Origin: Alphaproteobacteria bacterium
Lineage (GTDB): Bacteria; Pseudomonadota; Alphaproteobacteria; Thalassobaculales; Thalassobaculaceae
DNA length: 64,000 nt
Assembly: GCA_022822665.1 (NCBI GenBank)
Contig: JAJEAR010000070.1
Location: 62,001-126,000, forward strand
Reading direction: 5' to 3'
Shown: piece after piece, positions 13,546 to 63,907 of the stretch
How the letters are laid out: each line of letters begins with the position of its first letter
Position numbering within the stretch: position 1 is the first letter of the stretch
Position numbers and translations under genes: made by a program
Notes under the pieces: model-generated
Seen by the model: the letters and a program-made list of their open reading frames with translations, nothing else
The model's database searches: none
What the model was told of the DNA's origin: nothing

Positions 13546-13593
13546 CGGTCTTGCCGCTCCGGGCTGCGGTGGATTCGAAAATGGCGGCGCGGG

Positions 13594-14790: not shown

Positions 14791-14803
14791 GTCGCGCTCC
14801 CTC

Positions 14804-15985
14804 TCAGAGGACCTCGAACAGCCCCGCGACACCCATGCCGCCACCGACGCACATCGTGACCACGACGTGCTTCGCACCCCGGCGCTTGCCCTCGATCAGG
14901 ATGTGACCGGTCATGCGGGCACCGCTCATCCCGTAGGGATGGCCGATGGAGATCGAGCCGCCATTCACGTTGAGCCTGTCGTCGGGGATCCCGAGCTTGT
15001 CGCGGCAGTACAGAACCTGCACGGCGAAGGCCTCGTTCAGTTCCCACAAGTCGATGTCGTCGATGCCGAGCCCGTGGCGTTCAAGCAGGCGGGGGACCGC
15101 GAAGACCGGACCGATTCCCATCTCGTCCGGTTCGCAGCCGGCGACCGCCAGGCCCTTGTAGAGTCCGAGCGGCTCGAGGTTGCGGCGCTCGGCGAGGCGC
15201 GCGTCCATGACCACGCAGGCCGACGCGCCGTCGGACAGCTGGCTCGCGTTGCCCGCGGTCACGAAGTGCTCCGGTCCGCGCACCGGTTCGAGTCCCGCCA
15301 GTCCCTCCATGTTGGTGCCCGGACGGTTGCCCTCGTCACGGTCCAGCACGACGTCGCGTGAACTGATCTCGCCTGTGTCCCGGTCCTTGACCAGCATGGT
15401 GGACGGCAACGGCACGATTTCGTCGTCGAACAGTCCGGCCTGCTGGGCGATCGCGGTCCGCCGCTGGCTCTCGCAGGCATAGGTATCCTGCGCCTCGCGG
15501 GAAACGCCGTAGCGGTGTCCGACCGTATCCGCGGTCTCGATCATCGGCATCCAGAGTTCGGGCTTGGTCTCCATCAGCCCGTCCTCGGTCAGGCCGGTCT
15601 GGTTCATGTTCGGCGAAACGAGACTGATCGACTCGAGTCCGCCGGCAACCATCACCGGTACCTGGTCCATGACCACACGCTGGGCCGCCATCGAGATAGT
15701 CTGCAACCCGGAACTGCAGAACCGGTTGACCGTGGTGGCGCTGCTGGTCACCGGCAACCCGGCCTTGATCGCGCACTGGCGCGCGATGTTGAAGCCGGTG
15801 GCGCCCTCGGGGAAGCCGCAGCCGATGATGACGTCCTCGACCTCACCCGGCTCGACCCCGGCCCGCTCGACCGCGTGACGGACCGCATGGCCTCCCATCA
15901 CCGCTCCGTGGGTGTTGTTGAACGCACCGCGAAACGCCTTGCCGATCGGTGTCCGCGCCGTCGAGACGATGACTGCTTCCCGCAT
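14804..15985 (-). CDS. Acetyl-CoA C-acyltransferase (thiolase)
   Basis: A 393-residue type II thiolase. The acylated nucleophile is C90 in [11 protein letters not shown]349 lies in GHPYGMSG (the family GHPxG motif) and the second active-site cysteine C379 in CVGGGMGVA. Length and motif spacing are those of degradative thiolases, which cleave 3-ketoacyl-CoA with CoA to release acetyl-CoA (or propionyl-CoA). The ATG at 15985 is preceded by AGGGAGGAAA, while the open frame continues 78 codons upstream without homology. Gene order thiolase next to a FadB-type enzyme indicates a complete beta-oxidation set. Confidence 0.94.
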
Positions 15986-16037
15986 GGTTTCCTCCCTGTT
16001 CGCCGCCGTTGCCGGCGGTCGCGTGTCCCGTCCGGAT

Positions 16038-18134
16038 TCAGGCGCCGAGACTGGCGAACCCCCTGCCCTCGCGGACAAGGCGTTCGAGCAGCGGTGCCGG
16101 CCGCATCCATTCTCCGTGGTCCCGGTGCCACCGCTGCATGGCCTCGAGGATTCGGTCAAGGCCGACGCTGTCGGCCCAGAACATCGGACCGCCCCGCCAG
16201 CGTGGGAAACCGTAGCCATGAATCCAGATCACGTCGATATCCGAGGGCCGGATCGCCAGCCCTTCCTCCAGGATCTTGGCCGCCTCGTTGACCAGGGGGT
16301 ACATGCAGCGTTCCAGGATCTCCCCGTCGGGGACGTCCCTTCGCTTGATACCCGCCTGCTGCGACGCGGCAACGATGAGCTGCTCGATGTCCGGATCCGG
16401 AACCGGCACCCGGCTGCCCGGTTCGTAGCGGTACCAGCCGGCCCCGGTCTTCTGGCCGAAACGGCCCTGTTCGCAGATCCGGTCGGCGATGTCCGAGTAG
16501 CGCATGTTGCTCGGCCGCTCGGCACGCTTGCGCTGGCGGATCCGCCAGCCGACGTCCAGGCCCGCCAGGTCGCCCATGGCGAACGGCCCCATTGGGAACC
16601 CGAAGTCGTAGATTACCCGGTCGACCTGCTGCGGCAGCGCGCCCTCCTCGATCAGGAACCCGGCCTCGCGCCCGTACTGGTGCAGCATGCGATTGCCCAC
16701 GAACCCGTCGCACACGCCGACGAGAACCCCGACCTTGCCGATGGTTCGCGCCATGTCCATGACGGTAGCGATGGTCTCGTGCGACGAACGGACGCCGCGC
16801 ACGTTCTCCAGCAGCCGCATGACATTGGCCGGGCTGAAGAAATGGGTTCCGATCACGTCTTCCGGGCGGCCGGTCACCGCCGCGATCTCGTCGACGTCGA
16901 GCGTCGAGGTGTTGGTGGCCAGGATCGCGCCGGGCCGGCACACCCCGTCGAGCGCGCGGAACACCTCTTTCTTCAGTTCCATTTCCTCGAACACCGCCTC
17001 GATGACGATGTCGGCGCTGCCGATGTCGGCGAGTTCGGTCGAGCCGGTGATCAGCGCCATGCGCCGTTCCATCTCGTCCGCCGCCAGCCGGCCGCGCGAG
17101 ACGGTGGTGGCATAGGTGTTGCGCACCCGCTCGAGACCGGCATCGAGTGCCGCGCGCTCGGTTTCGACCACGGTGACCGGAATCCCGGCGTTGGCAAAGT
17201 TCATCGCGATGCCGCCGCCCATGGTTCCGCAGCCGATGACGGCCGCGGTCCCGATGGTCCGTCCCCGGGTCTCGCGGGGCAGGTCCGGGATGCGTCCGCA
17301 CTCGCGCTCGGCGAAGAACGCGTGACGCAATGACTGCGACTCGGGCGTGGTGACCAGGGAGAGGAATGTCTCGCGCTCGAACCGCAGCCCCTCGTCGAAC
17401 GGCCTGTTGACCGCCGCCTCGACACAGTCGACGCAGGCATACGGCGCGTTGCGTCCGCGCGCCGAGCGCGCCATGCCGGCGCGGAAGGTCTCGAACAGCT
17501 CCGGAGCGGCGCGGGCCGCGGCGAGTGCGTCGTCGCAATCGCGGGTGCGGCGCACCGTGCCGTCGGCGGCGAGCCGCCTGGCCGCCGCGACAGCGGCCTC
17601 GAGCAGGTCGCCGTCGGCCACCTCGTCGAGGATTCCGAGCTCGCGGGCCTGCCCGGCGTCGATCAGCCGGCCCGAGACGATGAGATCGAGTGCCGCTTCC
17701 GTCCCGATCAGCCGCGGCAGCCGCTGGGTTCCCCCGGCGCCCGGGACGATGCCGAGCGTCACCTCGGGCAGCCCGACCCGGCTTTCGGGTGCCGCGATCC
17801 GGTAGTGGGTTCCGAGCGCGAGTTCGAGCCCGCCGCCGGCCGCAACCCCGTGAATGGCCGAGACCACGGGCCGGTCGGACCCTTCGAGTGTTGCGATCAC
17901 CTGGTTGAGGTCCGGTGTCCCCGGCGGCGGCGTTGAGTTGAACTCACGGATGTCGGCGCCGGCGCTGTACATTCGCCCCTCGCCGATCAGCACCACGGCA
18001 TCAACGGTGGGATCGAGTCCCGCGAGCGCGTCCGCGAGACCGCTGCGCAGTGCCGCGCCGAGGCCGTTGACCGGGGGATTGCTCATGCGAAGGACCGCGA
18101 TCGGTCCGTGGCGTTCGGTACTGACAGCAGTCAT
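16038..18134 (-). CDS. Multifunctional enoyl-CoA hydratase / 3-hydroxyacyl-CoA dehydrogenase (FadB/PFE type)
   Basis: A 698-residue fusion. The N-terminal crotonase domain (about 1-190) keeps both catalytic glutamates, one in [10 protein letters not shown] and one in GLPEVTLG. The central NAD-binding domain has [17 protein letters not shown] near residue 300 and the [13 protein letters not shown] and [15 protein letters not shown] segments that hold the catalytic histidine. Two C-terminal dehydrogenase domains follow. The arrangement matches monofunctional-length peroxisomal-type enzymes of Proteobacteria. It hydrates trans-2-enoyl-CoA and oxidises the 3-hydroxy product with NAD. The frame runs 154 codons farther upstream, but the family start is at 18134 ([10 protein letters not shown]). 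The thiolase gene follows after 52 bases. Confidence 0.94.
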
Positions 18135-18214
18135 GGTCCTCGGTCTCCGTCTCTCTGCGTTCCGGCGGCGGGCCGGCACCCTGCGCCAGCCCGTCCGTCC
18201 GGGCAAATGTCTCC

Positions 18215-19189
18215 TCAGCCGGCCTGCCCGTGCGAGAGCGCGGCCTCGAGCGCCCGGCCTACCGCCTGCTGGGCCGTTTCCGCCTCGTCGATGATCCCGA
18301 CCAGGCCGAAGAACGCGTGCAGCACGCCCGGATACTCGATGTACGACACCGACACCCCGGACTCGACCAGGCGGGTGGAATAGGCTCTCGCGTCGTCGCG
18401 CAGCACGTCGCAGCCCGCGGCGATCACGATGGCGGGCGCCACTCCGGCGAGCGAGGGCGCGAGCAGCGGCGAAGCCCGCCAGTCCGCGTGGCGGGCCGGG
18501 TCGGATCCGAGGTAGTGCTGCTGGAACCAGGTCATGGTGTCGGCCTCGAGGACTCCGTACCCGGTCCCGAACTGCCGGTAGCTCCCGCTTTCGCACCGGT
18601 AGTCGGACACGGGGTAGACCAGGACCTGGAGCCTGAGCGGCGGACCGCCGGCGTCGCGGGCCATGAGGGCCACCACCGCGGCAAGATTGCCGCCGGCGCT
18701 GTCACCGCCGACCGCGATCCGTTCCGGGTCGATGCCGAAACGCCCCGCATTTTCCACCGCCCACTGCAGCGCCGCGTAGCTGTCGTCGACAGCGGCGGGA
18801 AACACCTGTTCGGGTGCGAGACGGTAGTCGACGGACAGGACGGCGACATTGCCGTGGTGGCAGAGACCGCGGGCAACGCCGTCATGACTGTACAGGCTGC
18901 CGATGACGTGACCACCGCCGTGGTAGTAGACCAGCAGTCCCGGCCTGTGGGCCCAGCGTGGCAGGTACAGCCGGGCCGGGATCAGGCCCGCGGGTCCCGG
19001 CAGGCGCAGCTCCACGGTCGACCCCACTTCCGGCGGCAGGACCTCGCGGGCGGCGACCGCGCGCTCCATCTGTTCACGGGCGGCGGCAACCGTCAGCGAG
19101 GTCATCGGCGGCAGGTCGAGAGCCGCGATCTTGCGCAGGAATTCCGCGGTCTGCGGGGTGACGTCTGCGGGGGGCGTGTAACGTGTCAT
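18215..19189 (-). CDS. Alpha/beta hydrolase, hormone-sensitive-lipase family esterase
   Basis: A 324-residue esterase. The oxyanion motif HGGG is at 90-93 (YYHGGGHVIGS) and the nucleophile elbow GDSAGG at 162-167 with S164. The acid and histidine are expected in the C-terminal segments AAGCDVLRDDA and PGVLHAFFG. HSL-type enzymes hydrolyse short to medium esters, and some act on lactones or steroid esters. No signal peptide, so cytoplasmic. Its start overlaps the stop of the next hydrolase gene by 4 bases, showing translational coupling, and FadB lies 80 bases downstream. Confidence 0.92.
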   Translation of the reverse strand: MTRYTPPADVTPQTAEFLRKIAALDLPPMTSLTVAAAREQMERAVAAREVLPPEVGSTVELRLPGPAGLIPARLYLPRWAHRPGLLVYYHGGGHVIGSLYSHDGVARGLCHHGNVAVLSVDYRLAPEQVFPAAVDDSYAALQWAVENAGRFGIDPERIAVGGDSAGGNLAAVVALMARDAGGPPLRLQVLVYPVSDYRCESGSYRQFGTGYGVLEADTMTWFQQHYLGSDPARHADWRASPLLAPSLAGVAPAIVIAAGCDVLRDDARAYSTRLVESGVSVSYIEYPGVLHAFFGLVGIIDEAETAQQAVGRALEAALSHGQAG

Positions 19190-47499: not shown

Positions 47500-48279
47500 T
47501 CACCGGGCAAAGTCTCCGAGCCCCGAGCGGTCCAGCTGGCGCAGCAGCGCCGGCCACTCGCGCCCGGCCTCGATGAATCCGCCCTTGCCGTACATGGCAC
47601 GACCCTGGCGCACCGACTTCTCGCGGGTCTGCAGCGAGATCGGCATCAGTTCCGACCCGCCGGAAAGCGCGTCGATCTGCTGGCGGCACGCGGTTTCGAT
47701 CCGGTACATCCACACGAACGCCTCGCCCACCGTCTGCCCCACGGTCAGCAGGCCATGGTTGCGCAGGATCAGGATGCGGTTCTCGCCAAGGTCGCGGACG
47801 ATGCGTGGCTGTTCGCCGGCGTCGAGCGCGGGTCCTTCGAAGTCGTGGTAGCCCAGCCAGCCGGAGATCGTCAGCGCCTTCTGGCTTGCCGGCAGCAGTC
47901 CCTGGCGCTGCATCGAGACCGCGGTGCCAAAGCGGCTGTGGGTGTGCAGGACGCAGTGGTGCCGCGCGTCGGAGAGGTGTATCGCGCCGTGGATCACGAA
48001 GCCGGCCGGGTTGAGCGGGTAGTCGCTCGCCCCAATGACCTCGCCGTCGCTGTTGACCCGGATCAGCGACGAGGCGGTGATCTCGTCGAACAGCATGCCG
48101 AACGGATTGAGCAGGAACTCGTCCCCGCGTCCCGGAATCCGCAGCGAGAAATGCGTGTTGTTGAGATCGGTCCAGCCATAGAGCGCCGCCAACCGGTAGG
48201 CGGCCGCGAGATCGCAGCGTGCCTCCCACTCGGCCGCGTCCATGCCTGCGGGCGCCCGTGCCCCGGTGGCAAGTGTCAT
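47500..48279 (-). CDS. Class II aldolase/adducin family protein
   Basis: A 259-residue protein with the family metal site: H112-x-H114 in LHTHSRFGTA and H175 in RNHGLLTVG. True aldolases (FucA, AraD) also have a catalytic acid that is not obvious here, so decarboxylase or non-catalytic roles are possible; this branch (opening EARCDLAAAYRLAALYGW) is commonly just called 'class II aldolase family'. The start at 48279 is an ATG. First gene of the minus-strand three-gene operon. Confidence 0.85.
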   Translation of the reverse strand: MTLATGARAPAGMDAAEWEARCDLAAAYRLAALYGWTDLNNTHFSLRIPGRGDEFLLNPFGMLFDEITASSLIRVNSDGEVIGASDYPLNPAGFVIHGAIHLSDARHHCVLHTHSRFGTAVSMQRQGLLPASQKALTISGWLGYHDFEGPALDAGEQPRIVRDLGENRILILRNHGLLTVGQTVGEAFVWMYRIETACRQQIDALSGGSELMPISLQTREKSVRQGRAMYGKGGFIEAGREWPALLRQLDRSGLGDFAR

Positions 48280-48382
48280 GGCATGTCTTCCCGATTGGTG
48301 TTCCGTCCACCGGCCGTTCTACTCTATCCGGGCGATCGCCGGGAGAGAGTCTGCCCGAGCCGGGGCGGGAGGGAATGCGACG

Positions 48383-49150
48383 ATGCTGAGATGTGACCGG
48401 GCGGACGACATCGTCGTTCTCACGCTCGACCGGCCCGGTGCCGGCAACTCGATCAGCAGCGGCCTGACCGGGGTCCTGCTCGAGGAACTCGAACGCCTTG
48501 CCGGGGACGAGACCGTGCACGCGGTGATCATCACCGGCGCGGGGGAGCGGTTCTTCTGCACCGGCGGCGACGTCAAGGAATACCGGCTGATCCAGACCGA
48601 GGAGGAACTGAACGCGCGGTTCGACCGTACCCGCAGGGCGATGGATATGCTCGAGGGGCTGCATTGCCCGGTCATCGCGGCGATCAACGGCTATGCGCTC
48701 GGCGGCGGTGCGGAGATCATCCTGTGCTGCGATTACCGCATTGCCGAGGAGCATGCCCGGATCGGATGGCCGCAGGTCCGTCTCGGCATCATCCCGGCGT
48801 GGAACGGCATCGACAGGCTGGTCCGGGACTGCGGGCCCCGGGTGGCGTCTCGCATGATGTTGACCGGCGAGCAGGTGTCCGCGGCCAAGGCCCGCGATCT
48901 CACCATCATCGACCAGGTGGTTCCGCGCGGCGCGGGGCTCGCGGCGGCCCGTGCCTGGGCCGCGGAGTTGCGCGCCGGCGCGCCGCTGGCGCTACGCGTG
49001 ACCAAGCGGGTGATCAGGGCAACGGACGGCCTCGAACGCGTCAGGGAACTTCAGAAACGGCTCTTCCCGGCACTGTGGTTCAGCGAGGACCACAAGGAGG
49101 CCGAGGCGGCCTTCGCCGAGCGGCGCACCCCCCGCTTTACCGGTCGCTGA
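48383..49150 (+). CDS. Enoyl-CoA hydratase/isomerase (crotonase) family protein
   Basis: A 255-residue crotonase-fold protein. The oxyanion-hole segments are FFCTGGDVKEY and ALGGGAEIILCCD. One of the two hydratase glutamates is kept (E111 in GGGAE), but the second is replaced by glutamine (Q131 in GWPQVRLG, where hydratases have QPE). The usual PGAGG after it reads PAWNG. Such one-glutamate crotonases act as isomerases, dehalogenases, hydrolases or carnitinyl-CoA-type racemases. The start at 48383 lies after GGGAGGGA. It is divergent from the aldolase operon, and its last 14 bases overlap the convergent aldo/keto reductase gene. Confidence 0.88.
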   Translation: MLRCDRADDIVVLTLDRPGAGNSISSGLTGVLLEELERLAGDETVHAVIITGAGERFFCTGGDVKEYRLIQTEEELNARFDRTRRAMDMLEGLHCPVIAAINGYALGGGAEIILCCDYRIAEEHARIGWPQVRLGIIPAWNGIDRLVRDCGPRVASRMMLTGEQVSAAKARDLTIIDQVVPRGAGLAAARAWAAELRAGAPLALRVTKRVIRATDGLERVRELQKRLFPALWFSEDHKEAEAAFAERRTPRFTGR

Positions 49151-50742: not shown

Positions 50743-51744
50743 ATGCCCACTTCCAGACCCTGGATTGCACTCGCTGCGACACCGGAACTGCCGATCCTCG
50801 AGACCCCGGTGCGCCATGCGATCGAAGACCGGCACGAGGTGCGAACCGTCGCCTTGCCCTACGCCCCGCTGAGCGCGGAGGAAACCGCACACTGGGCGGA
50901 ACGGTTCGCCGGCGCCGGCGGGATCCTGCTCAGGTCGGGCTATGTCACGGAAGAACTGCTGGACCTGCTCCCCGATCTGCGGGTGGTCGCGGTGCATGGT
51001 GCCGGAGTGGACCCGGTCGACGTCGAGGCCTGCACGGAGCGCGGCGTGCGGGTGACCAACACGCCGGGAGCCAATGCCGACGCCGTGGCCGAACTGACGA
51101 TCGCGCTCGTGCTCAGCGCGCTGCGCGGCATTCCCGATGCGGCCCATGCGACCCGGTCATGCCGGCAGTGGGACAGTGCGCGCGTTCTCGGAGGCGAACT
51201 CGGTGGACGCACGCTGGGGCTCGTCGGCATCGGACAGATCGGCACCCGCGTCGCCGGACTGGCAGCCGCGTTCGGGGCCCGGGTGGTGGCGGCCGATCCG
51301 GCTCTCGACGCCGCGGCGGTCCGCGAGCGCCACGCGGAACCAGTCTCGATCGAGACCCTGTTCGCCGAAGCCGACATCATATCTCTGCACGCACCGGCAA
51401 TCTCCGCGACCCGTCACATGATCAACGCGGACAGCATTGCGCGGATGAAACCCGGCGTGGTGCTGGTCAACTGCGCCCGGGGAAACCTTGTCGACGAGAC
51501 CGCGCTTGCCGGGGCCCTGCAGCAGGGGCATGTCGGGGCGGCGGCGCTTGACGTGCTGGACGGGGAACCACCGGATCCGGACAGTCCGCTGTATGGCGCC
51601 CCCAATGTGATCATGACGCCGCACATGGCGGGTTCGACACGCGAGTGTCTCGAGACCATCGCCCGGGTGGCCGCCGGCGACATCGTCCGTGTCCTCAACG
51701 GCAGGCAACCCGTGCATCCGGTCAATGCCCCGGGAGGATCGTAG
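50743..51744 (+). CDS. D-isomer-specific 2-hydroxyacid dehydrogenase
   Basis: A 333-residue NAD-dependent dehydrogenase. The dinucleotide loop is GIGQIG (162-167), and the catalytic set is R246 (CARGNLVDE), E275 (DGEPPD) and H294 (MTPHMAGST). It resembles SerA-like enzymes without the regulatory ACT domain, so it acts on a D-2-hydroxyacid rather than in serine synthesis. One base separates it from the next gene's start, so they form an operon. Confidence 0.92.
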   Translation: MPTSRPWIALAATPELPILETPVRHAIEDRHEVRTVALPYAPLSAEETAHWAERFAGAGGILLRSGYVTEELLDLLPDLRVVAVHGAGVDPVDVEACTERGVRVTNTPGANADAVAELTIALVLSALRGIPDAAHATRSCRQWDSARVLGGELGGRTLGLVGIGQIGTRVAGLAAAFGARVVAADPALDAAAVRERHAEPVSIETLFAEADIISLHAPAISATRHMINADSIARMKPGVVLVNCARGNLVDETALAGALQQGHVGAAALDVLDGEPPDPDSPLYGAPNVIMTPHMAGSTRECLETIARVAAGDIVRVLNGRQPVHPVNAPGGS

Positions 51745-51745
51745 G

Positions 51746-52690
51746 ATGTCGCGCAGGGTCGCCGTGGTCGGATCCGGCCTGATCGGCAGGTCGTGGTCCA
51801 TGGTCTTCGCCCGGTCCGGATGCGAGGTGTCGATGTACGACCCGGATCCGGACGCGCTCGCGGCGGCACGCTCGCGGCTTGCCGACGACCTTGCCGAACT
51901 CGAGCGGACCGGGCTGATCGCGGACAGCGGCGAGGCGATGGCGAGGATCTCGGACACCGACGTGCTCGAGGATGCGCTCGAGGGCGCCGGGTGGGTGCAG
52001 GAGAACGCGCCCGAGGTCCTGGAGATCAAGCGCGGGCTCTTCCACCGCATGGACGCGGTTGTCCCTGGCTCCGTCGTGATTGCGAGCTCGACCTCCGCCA
52101 TCCCCTGCAGCGCCATCGCCGCCGATCTCGAGGGTGCCGGCCGCATGGTGGTCGCCCATCCGGCCAATCCGCCGCACCTGCTGCCCATCGTGGAGATTTC
52201 CGGCGGTCCGGACACCGCCGACGGGACCGTCCGGCACGCCCGGGACTTCCTGGAGGCGATCGGCATGGCGGCGATCACCATTCGCCGGGAGATGCGCGGG
52301 TTCGTCCTGAACCGGCTGCAGGTAGCGCTGCTCAACGAGGCCTTCAAGCTCATCGAGGACGGGGTGGTGTCGGGCGAGGATCTCGACAAGACGGTGAAAC
52401 ACGGGCTCGGGCTGCGCTGGTCGTTCATGGGTCCGATGGAAACCATCGACCTCAACGCGCCCGGGGGAATTCGCGACTACCTCGAGCGGTTCGGGCCGGC
52501 GTTCGCACAGATTGCCGCGGAACAGTCGGAGTTCCGGCCATGGACAGAAGAGCGCTACGCGCGGCTGGAGGCTGAACGCCGGCTGGTGATGGCGCCGGAC
52601 GAACTCGCCGAACGGGCGCGCTGGCGCGACCGCCGGCTGCTGGCGCTGGTCCGCGACCGGGCGCGGGCGGAGGACGAACACGGGTCCTGA
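51746..52690 (+). CDS. 3-hydroxyacyl-CoA dehydrogenase family, lambda-crystallin (CRYL1)-like
   Basis: A 314-residue NAD-dependent enzyme. The N-terminal loop is VGSGLIGRSW (8-17). The strand ending in ASSTSAIPCS and HPANPPHLLPIVEI (H138, E150) is the signature of the lambda-crystallin/L-gulonate 3-dehydrogenase branch. Related enzymes oxidise free 3-hydroxyacids such as L-gulonate or L-carnitine rather than CoA esters. GGAGG precedes the ATG. With the sugar-acid-type lactonases downstream, oxidation of a sugar acid or hydroxyacid is plausible. Confidence 0.9.
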   Translation: MSRRVAVVGSGLIGRSWSMVFARSGCEVSMYDPDPDALAAARSRLADDLAELERTGLIADSGEAMARISDTDVLEDALEGAGWVQENAPEVLEIKRGLFHRMDAVVPGSVVIASSTSAIPCSAIAADLEGAGRMVVAHPANPPHLLPIVEISGGPDTADGTVRHARDFLEAIGMAAITIRREMRGFVLNRLQVALLNEAFKLIEDGVVSGEDLDKTVKHGLGLRWSFMGPMETIDLNAPGGIRDYLERFGPAFAQIAAEQSEFRPWTEERYARLEAERRLVMAPDELAERARWRDRRLLALVRDRARAEDEHGS

Positions 52691-54187: not shown

Positions 54188-55033
54188 ATGCCACGACCCG
54201 AGATCCTGATCGACGGACTGACCTTCCCGGAAGGACCGCGCTGGCACCAGGGGCGGCTGTGGTTCTCCGACTTCTACTCCCACCGGGTGATCGCCGCCGA
54301 TTGCGACGGCGCGACGCAGACCGTCTGCGAGGTCGCGAACCAGCCGTCCGGTCTGGGCTGGCTCCCGGACGGGCGCCTGCTGGTGGTGTCCATGACCGAC
54401 AGTACGGTGTTGCGGCTCGATCCCGACGGGCTTGTGCTGCACGCCGACCTCACCGGTCTGGCCCGGTTCTGGTGCAACGACATGACGGTGGACGAGGCCG
54501 GCCGGGCATGGGTGGGGAACTTCGGGTTCGACTACAGGTCGGGCGAGGAGCCGCGGACCACCACCCTGGTACGGGTCGACCCGGACGGGACGGCGACAGT
54601 GGCGGCGGACGACCTGTTCTTTCCGAACGGGATCGCGATCACGCCCGACGGCTCGACACTGGTGGTGGCCGAATCCTGGGGCCGGCGGCTCACCGCCTTC
54701 GATATCTCCGCCGGTGGCGAGCTCGTGGCGCGGCGCAGCTGGGCGGACGGCGGATACACCTGGGTGCCGGACGGCATCTGCATGGATGCGGAGGACGCGG
54801 TGTGGATCGCCGATCCCGTGAACAAGGAAGTGTTGCGGATCCGGGACGGCGGGGCGGTTGCCGAGCGCCATTCGACCGGCGAGCGCGGTGCCTACGCGGT
54901 GGCGCTCGGCGGTGCCGATCGGCGCACCCTGTTCATCTGCACCAACATCTGGCGCAACAGTGACCGGGTGGGCAATCCCACCGGGCGTATCGAGACGCTG
55001 CGGGTCGATGTGCCGGGGGCGGGCCGGCCATGA
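54188..55033 (+). CDS. SMP-30/gluconolactonase family protein (copy 1)
   Basis: A 281-residue six-bladed beta-propeller lactonase. The metal ligands fit SMP-30: glutamate in FPEGPRW (about residue 14), asparagine in FPNG and aspartate in VPDGICMD. It hydrolyses aldono- or other lactones to hydroxyacids in the cytoplasm (no signal peptide). Its stop overlaps the start of copy 2 by 4 bases. Confidence 0.92.
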   Translation: MPRPEILIDGLTFPEGPRWHQGRLWFSDFYSHRVIAADCDGATQTVCEVANQPSGLGWLPDGRLLVVSMTDSTVLRLDPDGLVLHADLTGLARFWCNDMTVDEAGRAWVGNFGFDYRSGEEPRTTTLVRVDPDGTATVAADDLFFPNGIAITPDGSTLVVAESWGRRLTAFDISAGGELVARRSWADGGYTWVPDGICMDAEDAVWIADPVNKEVLRIRDGGAVAERHSTGERGAYAVALGGADRRTLFICTNIWRNSDRVGNPTGRIETLRVDVPGAGRP

Positions 55034-55872
55034 CCGGGCTCGAGACCCTCACGGACGGGCTCACCTTCCCCGAGGGACCCCGCTGGCACCGGGGGCGCCT
55101 GTGGTTCTCGGACTTCTACTCACACCGGGTGATCGCCGTCGACCCGGAGGGCGTGGAGGAGACCGTCTGCGAGGTCGCCAACCAGCCGTCGGGTCTCGGC
55201 TGGCTTCCGGACGGCAGCCTGCTCGTGGTCTCGATGCGCGACCAGGCGCTGCTGCGATTTGCGGACGGCGTGCTGCGCCCGTACGCCGACCTGTCCGGCC
55301 ACGCCCGGTACTGGTGCAATGACATGGTGGTCGACTCAGCCGGCCGGGCATGGGTCGGCAATTTCGGATTCAACCGCCACGACGGCGAGGAGCCGCGGAG
55401 CACGACCCTGGTGCGGGTCGATCCGGACGGGTCCTGTCACATCGCGGCCCGCGGCCTGTGGTTTCCGAACGGCTGCGCGATTACTCCTGATGGCCGGACC
55501 CTCATCGTCGCGGAGACCAGGGCGCGGCGGCTCTGCGCCTTCGGAATCGACGACGGTGCCGCGCTCACCAACCGCCGCATCTTCGCCGAAACCGCGACCA
55601 TGTACCCCGACGGGATCTGCCTCGATGCCGAGGGTGCGGTCTGGGTGGCGGACCCGCACAACAGCGAGGTTGTCCGGTTCCGCGACGGCGGCAACGTCGC
55701 CGAACGGATCCGGCTCGAGGGGCGCGCGCCCTACGCCTGCATGCTGGGCGGTGATGATCGCCGCACGCTGTACCTGTGCACCTGTACCGGCTCGGGTCCG
55801 GAGATCGCCCGGGCCCGTTCCGGCCGGATCGAATTCACGCGGGTCGAAGTCCCGGGCGCCGGCCTGCCCTGA
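55030..55872 (+). CDS. SMP-30/gluconolactonase family protein (copy 2)
   Basis: A 280-residue paralogue of the preceding gene, with matching segments DGLTFPEGPRWH, GRLWFSDFYSHRVIA, VCEVANQPSGLGWLPDG and WVGNFGF, and the same metal-ligand motifs (FPEGP, FPNG, YPDGICLD). The nucleotide sequence is also close through the first 400 bases, showing a tandem duplication. The C-terminal third is more divergent, so the copies may differ in substrate. Start is ATG 55030. Confidence 0.92.
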   Translation: MTGLETLTDGLTFPEGPRWHRGRLWFSDFYSHRVIAVDPEGVEETVCEVANQPSGLGWLPDGSLLVVSMRDQALLRFADGVLRPYADLSGHARYWCNDMVVDSAGRAWVGNFGFNRHDGEEPRSTTLVRVDPDGSCHIAARGLWFPNGCAITPDGRTLIVAETRARRLCAFGIDDGAALTNRRIFAETATMYPDGICLDAEGAVWVADPHNSEVVRFRDGGNVAERIRLEGRAPYACMLGGDDRRTLYLCTCTGSGPEIARARSGRIEFTRVEVPGAGLP

Positions 55873-57253: not shown

Positions 57254-58312
57254 ATGTCAGATTCGCTGCTGCTCGATACCACCACACGCATCTTCGAGGA
57301 CCTGTGCGATCCCCGTACGGTCAATGCCGCCCGCGACGGGAAGTGGAAGGACACGCTGTGGGAGGCGCTCGAGGGGTCGGGACTGACGCTTGCCTGGGTG
57401 CCGGAGGAGCACGGCGGCGCCGGTGCCGGGCTTGCTGACGGGTTCGAGGTCCTCGCGGTTTCCGGCCGGTTCGCCGTGCCGGTGCCGCTCGCGGAAACCC
57501 TTCTTGCCGGCTGGCTGCTGGCGCAGGCGGGGCTGTCCTGCCCGGTCGGCCCGATGACGGTGGCGCCGTCACGGCTTCGCGACACCGTCACCGTGCGCGG
57601 TGACGGCACCCTTGCCGGGAAGGCGGCCGCGATCCCGTTCGCCGCCGCGGCGAATACCCTGGTGGTCCTCGCCGACCGCGACGGTGCGGCGACGGTCGTC
57701 CGGGTCGATCGTTCCGAGTGCACGATCCGGACCAGTCAGGGTTTCAGGGACGACGGCCGCGACCTGGTGGAACTTGACGGCGCGAGACCGGTCGAACTGG
57801 CACCGCTCGGTCCCGGCCTGGGTTCCGATTGCCTGGCGCTGATGGGTGCAACCGTCCGGGCGGTCCAGATCGGCGGAGCGCTCGAGGCCATCCTCGCACT
57901 CGCGACCGACTACGCGCGCGAGCGGGTCGCCTTCGAGCGGACGATCTCCCGGTTCCAGGCGGTCCAGCACAACCTGGCGCGCCTGGCCGGGGAGACGGCG
58001 GCGGCGGTGGCTGCCGCCGGGTCGGCGGCGGACACCGTGGCTACCGGAACCGGCGGCGATGACGCCCTGTTTCTCGAGGCGGCGTCGGCCAAGGTCCGCG
58101 CCGGCGAGGCGGCGGGCACCGGGGCCGCGATCGCGCATCAGGTGCACGGGGCCATCGGGTTTACCGAGGAGCATGTCCTGCACCGCTTCACCCGGCGCCT
58201 GTGGGCCTGGCGCGACGACTTCGGAAGCGAGAGCGAGTGGGCGGTCCGGCTCGGCAGGTTCGTCGCCGCCGCCGGCGCCGACGACCTGTGGCCCCTGCTC
58301 GCCTCTCGGTAA
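57254..58312 (+). CDS. Acyl-CoA dehydrogenase, small-subunit type
   Basis: A 352-residue acyl-CoA dehydrogenase-fold protein. The flavin segment RERVAFERTISRFQAVQHNLARLAGE and the end VHGAIGFTEEHVLHRFTRRLWAWRDDFG are conserved, while the central substrate region is divergent and lacks the A.TEP motif. This is the pattern of the smaller partner of heteromeric dehydrogenases. GTG 57224 is an alternative start, but the ATG at 57254 matches the family. The larger partner follows after 21 bases. Confidence 0.9.
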   Translation: MSDSLLLDTTTRIFEDLCDPRTVNAARDGKWKDTLWEALEGSGLTLAWVPEEHGGAGAGLADGFEVLAVSGRFAVPVPLAETLLAGWLLAQAGLSCPVGPMTVAPSRLRDTVTVRGDGTLAGKAAAIPFAAAANTLVVLADRDGAATVVRVDRSECTIRTSQGFRDDGRDLVELDGARPVELAPLGPGLGSDCLALMGATVRAVQIGGALEAILALATDYARERVAFERTISRFQAVQHNLARLAGETAAAVAAAGSAADTVATGTGGDDALFLEAASAKVRAGEAAGTGAAIAHQVHGAIGFTEEHVLHRFTRRLWAWRDDFGSESEWAVRLGRFVAAAGADDLWPLLASR

Positions 58313-58333
58313 CGACCGGCCGGATAGACACCC

Positions 58334-59494
58334 ATGTCCCACGCAATCCAGTTCGACCAGCTCCGACTGCCCGGCGAGGCCGAGGAACTCCGTCTCGAGG
58401 TCCGCGCCTTCCTCGCCGACGAGATCGCCAGCGGCGGCTTCGACCCCGCGGCATCGGTGTTGCGCGGCGGCTTCGACCGCGCGTTCTCGCGCCGCGTCGG
58501 AGCCCGCGGCTGGATCGGCATGACCTGGCCGAAGCGGTACGGCGGCGGCGAGCGCAGCTTTCTCGAACGTTACGTGGTCACCGAGGAGTTCAGGGTCGCC
58601 AATGCCCCGACCGGGGCCCACTTCACCGCCGACAGGCAGAGTGGGCCGGTCCTGCTCAAGTATGCGCCCGAGCACATCAAGAACGACGTGCTGCCGCGCA
58701 TCACCCGGGGTGAATGCTGCTTCTGCATCGGGATGAGCGAGCCCAATTCGGGCTCGGACCTGTTCGCGGCCAGCACCAGGGCGACGCCCACGGCCGGCGG
58801 ATACCTGGTCTCCGGCACCAAGCTGTGGACATCGAATGCGCACAATGCCGACTACATGATCGGACTGTTCCGGACCTCGCCGCCGACGGCGGAGAACCGG
58901 CGGCACGGTCTCACGCAGTTCCTGGTCGACCTGTCGCGCTCCGGGATCACCATCAATCCGGTACGCAACATGGCCGGCCGGCACGAGTTCAACGAGGTGG
59001 TCTTCGACGACCTGTTCATCCCCGATGACCACGTGCTCGGCGAGGTCGACGGCGCGTGGAAGCAGGCGACAAGCGAGCTTGCCTACGAGCGAAGCGGACC
59101 GGAGCGGTTTCTCGAGACCTTCTACGTTCTGCCCGAGCTGGTCCGGGTGCTGGGCGGCGACCCCGATACGCGCGGCGCCGAGGGCATCGGCCGGCTGGTC
59201 GCCCAGCTGCACGCGCTGAGGCGGATGTCGGTTTCGGTCGCCGGCATGCTGGAGGCGGGCAAGGAACCGGTCCTGGAGGGATCGATCGTGAAGGACCTGG
59301 GCACCGTGTGGGAACAGGAGCTCCCGGCCCGCGCCCGGGACCTGGCCGCGTTCGTCGACGCGGCTCCCGGCAACCGCGCCACCTTCGACGAGTTGCTGGA
59401 ATTCGCCACCGTCATCGCGCCCAAGCTCACCATCCAGGGCGGAACGACGGAAGTGCTGCGGGGGATCATCGCCCGCGGACTCGGCCTGCGCTGA
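58334..59494 (+). CDS. Acyl-CoA dehydrogenase, large-subunit type
   Basis: A 386-residue dehydrogenase. It has CIGMSEPNSGSDLFAASTRA (substrate-flavin motif), SGTKLWTSNAHNADYMIG, FNEVVFDDLFIP and the C-terminal IQGGTTEVLRGIIARGLGLR. With the 352-residue protein it makes a second two-gene dehydrogenase resembling that at 12.4-14.8 kb, but the two pairs are not recent copies. It probably forms a heteromer acting on a bulky or branched acyl-CoA. The next gene begins 14 bases downstream with GTG. Confidence 0.93.
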   Translation: MSHAIQFDQLRLPGEAEELRLEVRAFLADEIASGGFDPAASVLRGGFDRAFSRRVGARGWIGMTWPKRYGGGERSFLERYVVTEEFRVANAPTGAHFTADRQSGPVLLKYAPEHIKNDVLPRITRGECCFCIGMSEPNSGSDLFAASTRATPTAGGYLVSGTKLWTSNAHNADYMIGLFRTSPPTAENRRHGLTQFLVDLSRSGITINPVRNMAGRHEFNEVVFDDLFIPDDHVLGEVDGAWKQATSELAYERSGPERFLETFYVLPELVRVLGGDPDTRGAEGIGRLVAQLHALRRMSVSVAGMLEAGKEPVLEGSIVKDLGTVWEQELPARARDLAAFVDAAPGNRATFDELLEFATVIAPKLTIQGGTTEVLRGIIARGLGLR

Positions 59495-59508
59495 CCGGGA
59501 GCGGATCC

Positions 59509-61632
59509 GTGCCCGACCTGTCCGCGCTGCTCTCACCGCGGTCCGTGGCGCTGATCGGCGCCTCGCCCGACACCGGCACCCTGCGCGGGCGGATCATGCA
59601 CATCCTTGCGCGGCACGAATTTGCCGGCCGGCTCCACCCGGTCAGCCGCTCGCACGACACCATCATGGGACGCGCGGCATTCACGACCATTGCCGACGTG
59701 CCCGGCCCGGTCGATCTCGCCGTCATCGTCATTCCCGCGGCCCACGTGCCGGGCGTGCTGCGCGAGTGTGCAAGTGCCGGTGTCCGGGCCGCACTCGTCC
59801 TGGCGTCCGGTTTCGCCGAGGAACCGTCGGAGGAAGGCCGCGACCTGCAGGGCGAGATCCGGGAGATCAGCGAACAGACCGGCCTCATCGTCGCCGGACC
59901 GAACTCCGAGGGGCTGGCGGTGTTCGAGCTTGGCCTTGCCGCCACCTTCAGTCCGGCTCTGGACGGTGACGGGCTGGTCCTGGTGCCTGACGCCGGGCCG
60001 CCGGGCCGAATCGCGGCCGTGGCCCAGAGCGGCGGCATGGGGTTCGCGTTCTTCGATCGCGGGCGGAGAAAGGGCCTGCGGTTCAGCCACGTCATGACCA
60101 CCGGAAACGAGGCCTGCCTCGAGAGCCTCGACGTGGTCGAATACCTCGTTGACAGCGATGGCGCTGACGTCTTCCTGCTGTTCATGGAGGACGTGAAGAC
60201 GCCGTCGCGCCTCGCGTCGGTCGCGGCGCGGGCGCTGCGCGCGGGCAAGCCGCTCATCGTCGCCAAGATCGGCCGGTCGGAAGCGGCGGCCCGGGCGGCG
60301 GCGTCACACACCGCCTCGCTTGCCGGTTCGCATGACATCTACCAGGCCATATTCCGCCGCCACGGCGTGATCGAGGGACGCGACCTCGACCAGATGCTCG
60401 ACATTGCCGCCGGCTTTGCCGCCTTCGGCGACCGGCCGCCCGCGGGCCGGAACGTGGCGATCTTCACCGGGTCCGGCGGTGCAGGCGGCTGGCTTGCCGA
60501 CGCCTGCGTCGATGCCGGCCTGGAGGTACCCGTGCTCGATGACGAGACGCGGGCACGGATCGACGTCCACCTGCCACCCTATGGCACATCGCAGAACCCG
60601 GTGGACGGGACCGCGGGCGTGATCCGGCAACTCGGCTATGCCCGTATTGCCCGGATGATCGCGTCGTCCGCGCGCGTCGACGCGATACTGCTGATAACCT
60701 CGGCCCGCAATCCCCACTCGCTGGTCTCCGAAGCCGAAGCGCTCGCCGGGTACGCGGCAGAGACCACCAAGCCGGTAATCGCCTGGAGCTATACCCTGCC
60801 GCATCCCGATGCCGTGCGAACGCTGGCGCGGGCCGGATTGCCGCTCGTCACCGAGATGCGCAACGCCCCTGCCGCCATCGCGGCGCTCGAGACCCACGCG
60901 CGGGCCCGCGACCGGGCGCTCGCCGCTCCCGCCGGCTCCTGCCGGCCGGTGGCCCCGGCGGTCGGCTCCGCGCTGGCCGGGACACCGCGGGTGGTTCCCG
61001 AGGTCGAGGCGATGTCGATCCTCTCCGAAGCCGGGTTTTCGCTCGAGCCGGGCCGGCTCGCCGCCGATGCCGACGAGGCCGCACGCGCTGCCGGCCTCAT
61101 CGGGGGAGCCGTCGCGCTCAAGATCCAGTCCCCCGACATCCCGCACAAGTCGGCGGCCGGCGGCGTGGTTCTCGGGTGTGGGACACGCGAAGAGGTGCGG
61201 GCGGGCTTCGGGACTATCATCGACCGGGTCTCGCAGCATCATCCGGATGCCCGCATCCAGGGCATCCTGGTACAGCCGATGGCCCCGCCGGGGCTCGAGA
61301 TGATCCTCGGGATCGAGAACAGCTCCGGGTTCGGGCCGATGGTACTGGTCGGTTTCGGTGGCATCGCGGTCGAGACCGGCCGGGACGTGGCGCTTGTCGC
61401 CGCACCGCTCGATGGAGCGGATGCCGCCGCATCACTTGACCGGCTCAGGGGAGCCGCAGTGCTGGACCCGTCCCGGCATGACCTCGACGCCCTGTGCGCG
61501 CTCATGTGCGAACTCGGGCGGTTCGCGGTCGCGGTCGGAGATCATCTCGCCGAAGTCGACCTCAACCCGGTGCTTGTCCACCCGCCGGGTTCGGGAGTAT
61601 CGATCGTCGACGCCCTGATGGTCACTCGATGA
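59509..61632 (+). CDS. NDP-forming acyl-CoA ligase (acetate-CoA ligase family)
   Basis: A 707-residue protein with the fused alpha-beta arrangement of ADP-forming acyl-CoA synthetases. The CoA-binding domain (about 1-130) opens SPRSVALIGASPDTG, and the ligase domain carries the phosphorylated H267 in ASHTASLAG. A C-terminal ATP-grasp domain (about 480-707) has GGAVALKIQSPDIPHKSAAGGV. Such enzymes form or cleave acyl-CoA with reversible ATP synthesis. The GTG at 59509, 7 bases after GGGAG, gives the family N-terminus; the frame continues far upstream inside the dehydrogenase gene and should not be used. Confidence 0.92.
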   Translation: MPDLSALLSPRSVALIGASPDTGTLRGRIMHILARHEFAGRLHPVSRSHDTIMGRAAFTTIADVPGPVDLAVIVIPAAHVPGVLRECASAGVRAALVLASGFAEEPSEEGRDLQGEIREISEQTGLIVAGPNSEGLAVFELGLAATFSPALDGDGLVLVPDAGPPGRIAAVAQSGGMGFAFFDRGRRKGLRFSHVMTTGNEACLESLDVVEYLVDSDGADVFLLFMEDVKTPSRLASVAARALRAGKPLIVAKIGRSEAAARAAASHTASLAGSHDIYQAIFRRHGVIEGRDLDQMLDIAAGFAAFGDRPPAGRNVAIFTGSGGAGGWLADACVDAGLEVPVLDDETRARIDVHLPPYGTSQNPVDGTAGVIRQLGYARIARMIASSARVDAILLITSARNPHSLVSEAEALAGYAAETTKPVIAWSYTLPHPDAVRTLARAGLPLVTEMRNAPAAIAALETHARARDRALAAPAGSCRPVAPAVGSALAGTPRVVPEVEAMSILSEAGFSLEPGRLAADADEAARAAGLIGGAVALKIQSPDIPHKSAAGGVVLGCGTREEVRAGFGTIIDRVSQHHPDARIQGILVQPMAPPGLEMILGIENSSGFGPMVLVGFGGIAVETGRDVALVAAPLDGADAAASLDRLRGAAVLDPSRHDLDALCALMCELGRFAVAVGDHLAEVDLNPVLVHPPGSGVSIVDALMVTR

Positions 61633-61664
61633 CGTCGACGCAGGGAGTTTCACGGAGGGTTCAG

Positions 61665-62465
61665 ATGACAGGGTTTCCCGGGTTTGCCGACATCGGCGTG
61701 ACCACCGAGGGTCATGTCGCAACCATCGAGATCCAGCGACCGCCCCATAATTTCTTCGACTACGCCCTGATCCAGCAGATCGCGGATGCGATGGACATCA
61801 TCGACGGTGATCCGCTGCTGCGCTGTGCGGTGCTGTGCTCTGCCGGCAAGTCGTTCTGCGCGGGGGCGAACTTCGGTTCCGACGGATCGAGTTCATCGAG
61901 CCGGTCCGAAAACGGCGACGGGGTTCGCGCACCGCATCTCTACCTCGAGGCGGTCCGGCTGTTCGGGGCAAGAACGCCCATTGTCGGAGCCATCCAGGGG
62001 GCGGCGATCGGCGGGGGTCTCGGCCTGGCGCTGGTTCCCGATTTCCGGGTGGCGGCGCCGGAGGCGCGGTTCTCCGCCAATTTCACCCGGCTCGGGTTTC
62101 ATCCCGGGTTCGGCCTGACCCATACCCTGCCGGCGCTGATCGGCCAGCAGCGGGCCTGCCTGATGTTCTACACCAGCCGCCGAATCAAGGGCGAGGAGGC
62201 GGTCGAATGGGGGCTGGCCGACGTGCTGGCGCCACTTGACGGGGTCCGTTCAACCGCGCAGGCGCTGGCAGCAGAAATCGCTGAGAACTCGCCGCTGGGC
62301 GTGGTCGAGACCCGGGCGACCATGCGCGCGGGCCTTGCGGACCGCGTACGCGAGACCACCGATCACGAACTCGTGATCCAGAACCGGTTGCGCCAGACCG
62401 AGGACTTCCGGGAAGGCGTGCGGGCGATGGCCGAGCGCCGTGTCCCGGAGTTCCGCGGGGCCTGA
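61665..62465 (+). CDS. Crotonase-fold protein lacking both hydratase glutamates
   Basis: A 266-residue enoyl-CoA hydratase/isomerase-family protein. The CoA-binding and oxyanion-hole segments SFCAGANF and AAIGGGLGLALVPD are present, but the catalytic glutamates of true hydratases are replaced by G120 (GGGLG, hydratases GGGxE) and F140 (ANFTRLG, hydratases QPE). It is therefore unlikely to hydrate enoyl-CoA and may catalyse isomerisation, C-C cleavage or hydrolysis. The start at 61665 follows GGAGGG; an ATG at 61629 overlaps the preceding stop but has no ribosome site. Last gene of the plus-strand CoA module. Confidence 0.88.
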   Translation: MTGFPGFADIGVTTEGHVATIEIQRPPHNFFDYALIQQIADAMDIIDGDPLLRCAVLCSAGKSFCAGANFGSDGSSSSSRSENGDGVRAPHLYLEAVRLFGARTPIVGAIQGAAIGGGLGLALVPDFRVAAPEARFSANFTRLGFHPGFGLTHTLPALIGQQRACLMFYTSRRIKGEEAVEWGLADVLAPLDGVRSTAQALAAEIAENSPLGVVETRATMRAGLADRVRETTDHELVIQNRLRQTEDFREGVRAMAERRVPEFRGA

Positions 62466-62470
62466 CCGGC

Positions 62471-63847
62471 TCAGAGCTCTCCGTCGCGGCGCAGCATCCG
62501 CAGCGATTCCCGGAACGCGTCGGCAGTGAATTCGAGGTCGTCGCGGGTATGGGTTGCCGAAAGCAGGCAGCCCGGTGCGTTCGACAGGTCGACACCGTTG
62601 ACCGCCATGGCGAGCCTCAGCTTCATCACCTGCTGCCTGTTCCGCTTCTTCAGCTTCTCGTAGGGGATCAGGGACGGATCGATGTTCCCGGGCGTGACCG
62701 GGTCCCGATCGGGATTCATGTAGAGCTGGACGCCGGAAAAGGTCCCGTAGGCGGCCCAGGCAACGTTCTCCTCGGCCAGGACCTCGTTGAAACGCTCACG
62801 CAACCAGGCCGCGGACGCGTTCGCCTTCTCGCAGGCGTCGCCGGCCTCGATGATCCTGAGCGCGGTCAGTCCGGCGGTGGCCGAGACGGGATTGGCGTTG
62901 AAGGTTCCCGGGTGATCGATCTTCTCGCGCCCGGCCTCCGCCGAGCGGTCGAAATCCAGGTGATCGAGGATCTCCCTGCGACCGGCAACGGCGCCGCCAG
63001 GCAGACCGCCGGCGAGGATCTTCGCCATGGTGGTCAGGTCAGGGGTCACACCGTAGGCCTGCTGGGCGCCGCCGGGGCTGCAGCGGAACCCGGTGACGAC
63101 CTCGTCGAAGATCAGCAGTGCGCCGTGGCGCGCGGTCAGCTCGCGCAGGCCCGAGCTGAACGCGGCATCCATCGGCACGATGCCGAACGAGGCGCCGGTC
63201 GGCTCGCAGATCACCGCCGCGATGTCGTTGTCGTTCTCCAGGATCGAGCGAACGTCGTCGAGGTCCTGGGGAGACGCGAGCACGATGTGTTTCGCGACCG
63301 GTTCGAGCACGCCCACCGTCGCGGTGCCGTCAAAGTGGCTCGAGAAACCCGCGGTCATGTGGTCGTGCCAGCCGTGAAAATGGGTGCGGAACCGGATGAC
63401 CTTGTTGCGTCCGGTATGGGCCCGGGCGAGCCGCAGCGCCATCAGGGTGGCCTCCGTGCCCGACGAGGTGAACCGGACCCGCTCGGCCGAGGGAACCATC
63501 CTGATCACCTGCTGCGCCCAGGCGACCTCGCGGGGATGGTTGGCGCCGAACTGGGTGCCTGCTGCCATCGCGTCGTTGACCGCCGAGGTGACCTCGGGAT
63601 CGCAGTGTCCGAGCAGCAGTGCGCCGTGGCCGCCGAAGTAGTCGACGTACCGGTTGCCGTCGACATCCCACTTGTGCGGGCCGGCCGCGTGCTCGATGTA
63701 GAGGGCATACGGTTTCAGGTAGCGCGAATCATGCGCGATGCCGCTGGGCAGCAGCTCGGCCGCCTCTGCGGCCAGGGTTCCGGACCCGGGTGTCTTCTCC
63801 CGGTAGGCGCTTACGATCTGGGAATTGGACAGGAAGGTGTCCGGCAT
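62471..63847 (-). CDS. Class III aminotransferase, glutamate-1-semialdehyde aminomutase-like
   Basis: A 458-residue PLP enzyme. The Schiff-base lysine is K276 (TTMAKILAGGLPGGA) and D248 (IFDEVVTGFR) interacts with the pyridine nitrogen. The N-terminus (IAHDSRYLKPYALYIEHAAGPHKWDVDGNRYVDYFGGHGALLLGH) is of HemL type. The protein is somewhat longer than HemL and ends with an extra helical segment, so it is probably not the tetrapyrrole enzyme but one of the catabolic omega-aminotransferase-like relatives. The start at 63847 is followed upstream by 153 bases of apparent regulatory DNA. Convergent with the preceding crotonase gene (5-base gap). Confidence 0.9.
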   Translation of the reverse strand: MPDTFLSNSQIVSAYREKTPGSGTLAAEAAELLPSGIAHDSRYLKPYALYIEHAAGPHKWDVDGNRYVDYFGGHGALLLGHCDPEVTSAVNDAMAAGTQFGANHPREVAWAQQVIRMVPSAERVRFTSSGTEATLMALRLARAHTGRNKVIRFRTHFHGWHDHMTAGFSSHFDGTATVGVLEPVAKHIVLASPQDLDDVRSILENDNDIAAVICEPTGASFGIVPMDAAFSSGLRELTARHGALLIFDEVVTGFRCSPGGAQQAYGVTPDLTTMAKILAGGLPGGAVAGRREILDHLDFDRSAEAGREKIDHPGTFNANPVSATAGLTALRIIEAGDACEKANASAAWLRERFNEVLAEENVAWAAYGTFSGVQLYMNPDRDPVTPGNIDPSLIPYEKLKKRNRQQVMKLRLAMAVNGVDLSNAPGCLLSATHTRDDLEFTADAFRESLRMLRRDGEL

Positions 63848-63907
63848 GACGGCTGCTCCGGCTGGGTGCGGGAGCGCGCAGGGTAGCCGATACGCACCCG
63901 TGGCGCC

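Follow-up and report, generated by a model that had tools for sequence, protein, structure and literature searches.

Heteromeric acyl-CoA dehydrogenases (ACADs) of α2β2 architecture, in which the catalytic glutamate is present in one subunit only, have been described (PMC8399759, PMC11153573), and the NDP-forming acyl-CoA synthetase superfamily is known to work in both directions, ATP-making members included (PMC6388921). In Nmar_0206, the phosphohistidines are H256, on the swinging loop, and H535, in the ATP-grasp domain (PMC11494057). Among crotonases, exchanging either glutamate for alanine abolishes the activity of the hydratase AcuH (PMC5651017), EchA20 is known to open a ring by C–C hydrolysis (PMC5380842), and EchA6 is reported as a fatty acid shuttle by Cox et al. 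(2016), as cited in PMC5651017. Here we describe a locus encoding members of these families, a run of four genes at 57254–62465 (plus strand) of a 64,000-nucleotide stretch of alphaproteobacterial DNA (Thalassobaculaceae), hereafter the window, which lies within contig 81 of a 4.67 Mb assembly that is 95% complete. The genes encode two ACAD subunits (ACADa and ACADb), a ligase (LIG) and a crotonase (ECH). On balance, we favor the view that they form a conserved catabolic module whose crotonase is not a hydratase; the module is a variant of known enzyme kinds and does not amount to a novel type of system.

A first-pass annotation, made from the sequence alone, had recognized four adjacent plus-strand genes encoding a heteromeric dehydrogenase, an NDP-forming ligase and a crotonase. 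The open reading frames bear out this arrangement, the genes being closely spaced (gaps of 21, 14 and 32 bp for ACADa/ACADb, ACADb/LIG and LIG/ECH, respectively), and Pfam confirms the families. The features, with the evidence for each, are as follows.

57254–58312, plus strand: ACADa, a short half acyl-CoA dehydrogenase, putative subunit of the FAD-sharing type (Pfam, PDB sequence match, adjacency to ACADb)
58334–59494, plus strand: ACADb, a full-domain acyl-CoA dehydrogenase subunit (Pfam, PDB matches, invariant E252)
59087–59089, plus strand: codon of ACADb Glu252 in a YERSGP motif, candidate catalytic glutamate (aligned with the HER motif of 4x28_A)
59509–61632, plus strand: LIG, a fused NDP(ADP)-forming acyl-CoA synthetase with a GTG start (Pfam, nearest PDB entry)
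60307–60309, plus strand: LIG His267, putative swinging-loop phosphohistidine corresponding to Nmar_0206 H256 (alignment, conservation; role from PMC11494057)
61144–61146, plus strand: LIG His546, putative ATP-grasp phosphohistidine corresponding to Nmar_0206 H535 (alignment, conservation; role from PMC11494057)
61665–62465, plus strand: ECH, a crotonase of a separate clade that lacks both hydratase glutamates (PF00378, orthologue alignment, AlphaFold model)
61941–61943, plus strand: ECH Tyr93, clade-specific invariant (orthologue alignment)
62022–62024, plus strand: ECH Gly120, at the position of hydratase Glu144 (orthologue alignment, comparison with other crotonases)
62079–62084, plus strand: ECH Asn139-Phe140, with Phe140 at the position of hydratase Glu164 (orthologue alignment, comparison with other crotonases)
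62100–62102, plus strand: ECH His146, clade-specific (97 of 99 orthologues)
62106–62108, plus strand: ECH Gly148, at the position of the catalytic aspartate in PaaG-type isomerases (orthologue alignment)

ECH is a member of the crotonase superfamily (Pfam PF00378, ECH_1; E 1.4e-48, 165.8 bits), with the characteristic fold and conserved oxyanion-hole positions (A68 and G117); GGAGG stands ahead of its ATG (61665), and another possible ATG start, at 61629, overlaps the LIG stop codon. In a homology search of 61 genomes, its orthologues were 57–98% identical and were followed by a gap, all other crotonases falling below 40%. Public genomes yielded 80 ECH loci at 58–98% identity; the overall range was 56–98%, and a near relative (98%) comes from an unclassified alphaproteobacterial metagenome-assembled genome. 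We mapped the positions of Glu144 and Glu164 (rat ECH numbering) through the hydratases 5zai and 3kqf, both of which retain both glutamates, and found Gly120 and Phe140 in their place, as in the first-pass annotation; both are invariant in 99 of 99 aligned orthologues. Gly148, likewise invariant, occupies the position at which PaaG-type isomerases carry aspartate, as do the isomerase-like paralogues L005, L178 and L007. The residue claim of the first-pass annotation is thus firmer than had been stated, as the three known acid positions are empty and the clade has fixed other residues instead: Y93 and N139 are invariant in the same 99 orthologues, H146 is present in 97 of them, and F149 is also specific to the clade. 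Neither N139 nor H146 occurs in any of 34 other crotonases from this and other genomes. Loss of both glutamates is in itself not rare, being seen in eight of the 23 crotonases of the host genome; in four of these eight, one of them ECH, position 148 has no acid either.

The strongest clue to function comes from the operon of a marine lineage, where five loci (L064, L068, L069, L092, L094) share the order SDR-MaoC-ECH-ACADa-ACADb-LIG-alpha/beta hydrolase-LeuC-like-LeuD-like, where SDR denotes a short-chain dehydrogenase/reductase, and the same order is seen in part at L071, L077 and L091; the genes share a strand and either overlap or lie a short distance apart. The MaoC protein matches the hydratase 2 of MFE-2 and has an intact GDxNPLH motif (GDRNPLH), the SDR has YxxxK, and there is no thiolase among the genes seen in the operon. 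Since this operon has its own hydratase 2 and SDR, hydration and oxidation would be covered by other proteins than ECH, and a 3-oxoacyl-CoA would form. The marine hydratase 2 thus argues, independently of the residues, that ECH is not the hydratase; with both glutamates invariantly lost and a dedicated hydratase 2 in the marine operon, classical hydratase activity is very improbable for ECH. The LeuC/LeuD-like pair forms the tail of the operon (at about 13994–16116 of the five loci). As each of the five genomes holds another LeuC copy, about 48% identical, the marine LeuC-like protein probably belongs to this pathway rather than to leucine synthesis.

Conservation of the four-gene order, which the first-pass annotation had proposed as a check, was surveyed in 92 non-redundant loci with ECH. 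The complete set stands side by side at 29 further loci, with the order ACADa-ACADb-LIG-ECH at 18 of them and the rotated order ECH-ACADa-ACADb-LIG at 11. Another 22 loci, mostly from Bradyrhizobium and Rhodopseudomonas, keep the ACAD pair and ECH with no adjacent LIG, and six have a partial set, most of these being cut by contig ends. Furthermore, in some Rhodospirillaceae where ECH stands alone, ACADa-ACADb-LIG is found elsewhere in the genome, with ACADb 77–78% identical. The conserved unit is therefore the ACAD pair with ECH, and LIG is a usual but replaceable partner. Of 24 genomes in which ECH stands alone, 19 have an ACADb relative of at least 45% identity, although only those at 74–78% look like true orthologues; gammaproteobacterial matches (53–56%) have different neighbors, with neither LIG nor ECH among them, and were not counted as the module.

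The ACAD genes are adjacent in about 50 loci. ACADb has a full set of Pfam domains, including the middle domain, and its E252, which aligns with the HER motif of 4x28_A, is invariant in 50 orthologues; in ACADa only the N- and C-terminal domains were matched, and the catalytic glutamate candidate is absent. The best PDB matches are Tcur3483 (6wy9/6wy8) and 4x28_A for ACADb and Tcur3481 (6wy8_A) for ACADa, for which 4x28_D is also listed. Judged from these alignments, the pair is predicted to be a heteromer of the α2β2 steroid-type architecture, with which it shares two adjacent half-ACADs, one a full-domain subunit with the aligned glutamate and one a short subunit without a middle-domain match (compare Tcur3481-Tcur3483, ChsE4-ChsE5, Scd1AB and IpdE1-IpdE2). 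However, those enzymes act on steroid CoA-esters and the similarity of the window proteins to them is low, far under the NCBIfam cut-offs (73 of 450 bits for IpdE2, 140 of 624 for PimC). Steroid catabolism was considered and set aside, no gene of the host genome exceeding the IpdE2 cut-off, in a search that did not extend to other steroid genes.

How, then, might the module work? LIG would attach coenzyme A to an imported acid, the substrate probably being a bulky or branched carboxylic acid, and the ACADa/ACADb heteromer, by homology, would introduce an α,β double bond. Hydratase 2 and an SDR (or a 3HCDH-family protein), encoded locally or elsewhere, could then bring the CoA-ester to the 3-oxo level. 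ECH would act on a CoA-ester of the pathway without hydrating its double bond, using the conserved oxyanion hole and no glutamate pair. As the single most likely reaction we tentatively propose that ECH stands in for a thiolase and cleaves a C–C bond of a 3-oxoacyl-CoA by hydrolysis (retro-Claisen), Y93, H146 and N139 being the candidates for catalysis; we consider double-bond isomerization about equally plausible. The far-reaching version of this proposal is unlikely. In it, the clade would represent a new crotonase reaction class, a thiolase-replacing C–C hydrolase that employs Tyr/His/Asn rather than carboxylates, and would be central to a pathway for a branched or cyclic acid that is widespread in Alphaproteobacteria but has not been described.

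Phylogeny and structure were examined for placement of the clade. In the tree, ECH forms a clade with 100/100 support on a long stem, and the neighboring branches lack resolution. Approximately unbiased (AU) tests rejected none of the forced groupings: placing the clade with isomerase-like rows cost 0.9 log-likelihood units (lnL; p 0.49), with MenB rows 12.2 lnL (p 0.24) and with hydratases 13.6 lnL (p 0.11). The AlphaFold model (pLDDT 88) has an ordinary crotonase fold, with a top Z of 31.8 to crotonases; as searches with it returned only generic crotonases at similar Z (hydratases, isomerases, EchA6, 6-oxocamphor hydrolase and others), they do not separate the functions.

C–C cleavage by ECH, which the first-pass annotation had already suggested, is possible, but a tie between the clade and MenB shows neither in the tree nor in the residues. 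MenB/EchA20-type C–C bond enzymes and BadI share the crotonase fold with ECH, and MenB likewise lacks the Glu144/Glu164 pair; however, the MenB rows, taken from Acidimicrobiia, have Ser/Asp at positions 120/140 where the ECH clade has Gly/Phe, and the two did not group. A bona fide BadI was sought with TIGR03210, which had no match over its cut-off in three Rhodopseudomonas/Bradyrhizobium genomes. Several points weigh against a module built around a C–C hydrolase: (i) a link to C–C enzymes is wanting, as seen in the cost of forcing the clade with MenB and in the replacement of the MenB acid at position 140 by phenylalanine; (ii) ECH occurs without the module in 35 of the 92 loci (Gammaproteobacteria, Acidimicrobiia and some Alphaproteobacteria); and (iii) the alpha/beta hydrolase of the marine operon, not ECH, could be the cleaving enzyme.

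ECH may instead be a double-bond isomerase (of the Δ3/Δ2 type or a related one) by which unsaturated intermediates are readied or salvaged, with H146 or Y93 taking over from the usual aspartate. Such a reaction needs no glutamate pair, and holding the clade with the isomerase-like group costs far less than holding it with hydratases or MenB, although the tree itself leaves the placement without resolution. PaaG-type isomerases share with ECH the fold and an aromatic residue (Phe or Tyr) at the Glu164 position, whereas their acid at 148 is the invariant glycine of the ECH orthologues, and N139 and H146 set ECH apart from the other crotonases compared. Bradyrhizobium and Rhodopseudomonas have a second, isomerase-like crotonase nearby (Ser/Phe/Asp at 120/140/148), which may speak for isomerization in this setting, but two isomerases per cluster would be redundant.

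The direction in which LIG works bears on the pathway as a whole. LIG combines CoA-binding (CoA_binding_2), ligase (Succ_CoA_lig, Ligase_CoA_2) and ATP-grasp (ATP-grasp_5) domains with the two catalytic histidines, H267 and H546, which are invariant in 36 orthologues; it thus has the hallmarks of an NDP-forming acyl-CoA synthetase. Its nearest PDB entry is 8wzu, a 4-hydroxybutyrate-CoA ligase (ADP-forming; E 1e-84). The 4-hydroxybutyrate-CoA ligase of Nitrosopumilus and the feruloyl-CoA synthetase FCS1 have the same fused domain set and both phosphohistidines, whereas LIG scores 340 bits against an NCBIfam equivalog cut-off of 1300, roughly one quarter. By analogy, LIG more likely activates its substrate than releases CoA, because its nearest characterized relatives activate acids and activation supplies the entry step of the pathway. 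The first-pass annotation had proposed ATP-yielding CoA release, which is one of the two directions open to the superfamily and would place LIG at the pathway end; we consider this unlikely. The existence of ATP-making members (PMC6388921) is in its favor, and the marine LeuC/LeuD-like pair after LIG suggests a free-acid intermediate, but the closest relatives with a solved structure, 4-hydroxybutyrate- and 3-hydroxypropionate-CoA ligases, work as acid activators, the module would have no entry step unless LIG activates, and ABC importers recur near the module.

Other readings of ECH are less probable still. There is a small chance that it catalyzes some reaction other than those discussed here. 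We consider it quite improbable that ECH has remained a hydratase (or dehydratase) acting on some unusual substrate, the water being placed by H146, N139 and Y93 or else by the substrate: its best whole-sequence matches are hydratases (PDB 5zai; NCBIfam models, EchA19) and it has "PG" at 147–148, as hydratases do, but both glutamates are essential in the characterized hydratase (PMC5651017) and a dedicated hydratase 2 adjoins ECH in the marine operon. Least probable is a non-catalytic role in acyl-CoA binding or shuttling, as for mycobacterial EchA6, which appears in the structure search (5du8, Z 27.7, 33% identity) and would suit a protein with no catalytic acid at the three known positions, but which is not specially close to ECH by sequence (118 bits versus 165 for 5zai), while the near invariance of the polar, clade-specific Y93, N139 and H146 over a large phylogenetic range fits catalysis.

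The first-pass annotation had also argued that standard beta-oxidation was unlikely, as the only crotonase lacks both hydratase glutamates and it saw no thiolase or hydroxyacyl-CoA dehydrogenase. That there is a single crotonase, and that the other two enzymes are lacking, holds for the four-gene span but not for the window, which encodes an ordinary beta-oxidation set at 12415–18596 (minus strand), where genes for two ACADs, a thiolase and a FadB-type hydratase/dehydrogenase follow one another beside alpha/beta hydrolases; a second crotonase at 48242–49147 (plus strand), with glutamate at the 144 position and glutamine at the 164 position; and a 3HCDH-family protein at 51689–52690 (plus strand) that exceeds the NCBIfam PRK06129 cut-off. 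A hydratase 2 homologue (51%) is encoded on another contig of the host genome. The absence of a thiolase and a 3HCDH protein from the four genes is therefore no argument against beta-oxidation in the cell, and the earlier conclusion does not follow. A different 3HCDH subfamily (28% identity) flanks ECH in the relatives L044, L046, L047 and L057. Crotonases are numerous in the Acidimicrobiia genomes of L107 and L118, with at least 70 family matches each in about 4 Mb.

Upstream of CinA and the module, two similar SMP-30/gluconolactonase-like genes stand in tandem with a 4-base overlap (54188–55872, plus strand), and the SDR/CMD/SMP-30/CinA run is kept in close relatives. Downstream, a class III aminotransferase resembling glutamate-1-semialdehyde aminomutase (62471–63886, minus strand) is convergent with ECH. 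Genes for M81 (MlrC-type) peptidases recur beside ECH or the module in two lineages (L065, L066, L083, L087 and L089; L072, L076 and L082), and peptide/opine-type ABC importers (SBP_bac_5, oligo_HPY) lie near the module or LIG at L062, L076, L082, L095, L096, L097, L153, L154 and L165. Substrate guesses drawn from such neighbors (the peptide-type ABC importer, the M81/MlrC peptidase, a PnrA importer and a Peripla_BP_6 binding protein) were discarded, as they differ between lineages.

The ECH branch spans Alphaproteobacteria (Bradyrhizobium, Rhodopseudomonas and marine Rhodospirillaceae), Gammaproteobacteria and Acidimicrobiia. Because family libraries score its members best as enoyl-CoA hydratases although the hydratase residues are missing, a hydratase label would probably be wrong in many genomes. 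The conserved operon, together with a marine form that has its own hydratase, offers a concrete handle on both the substrate and the reaction.

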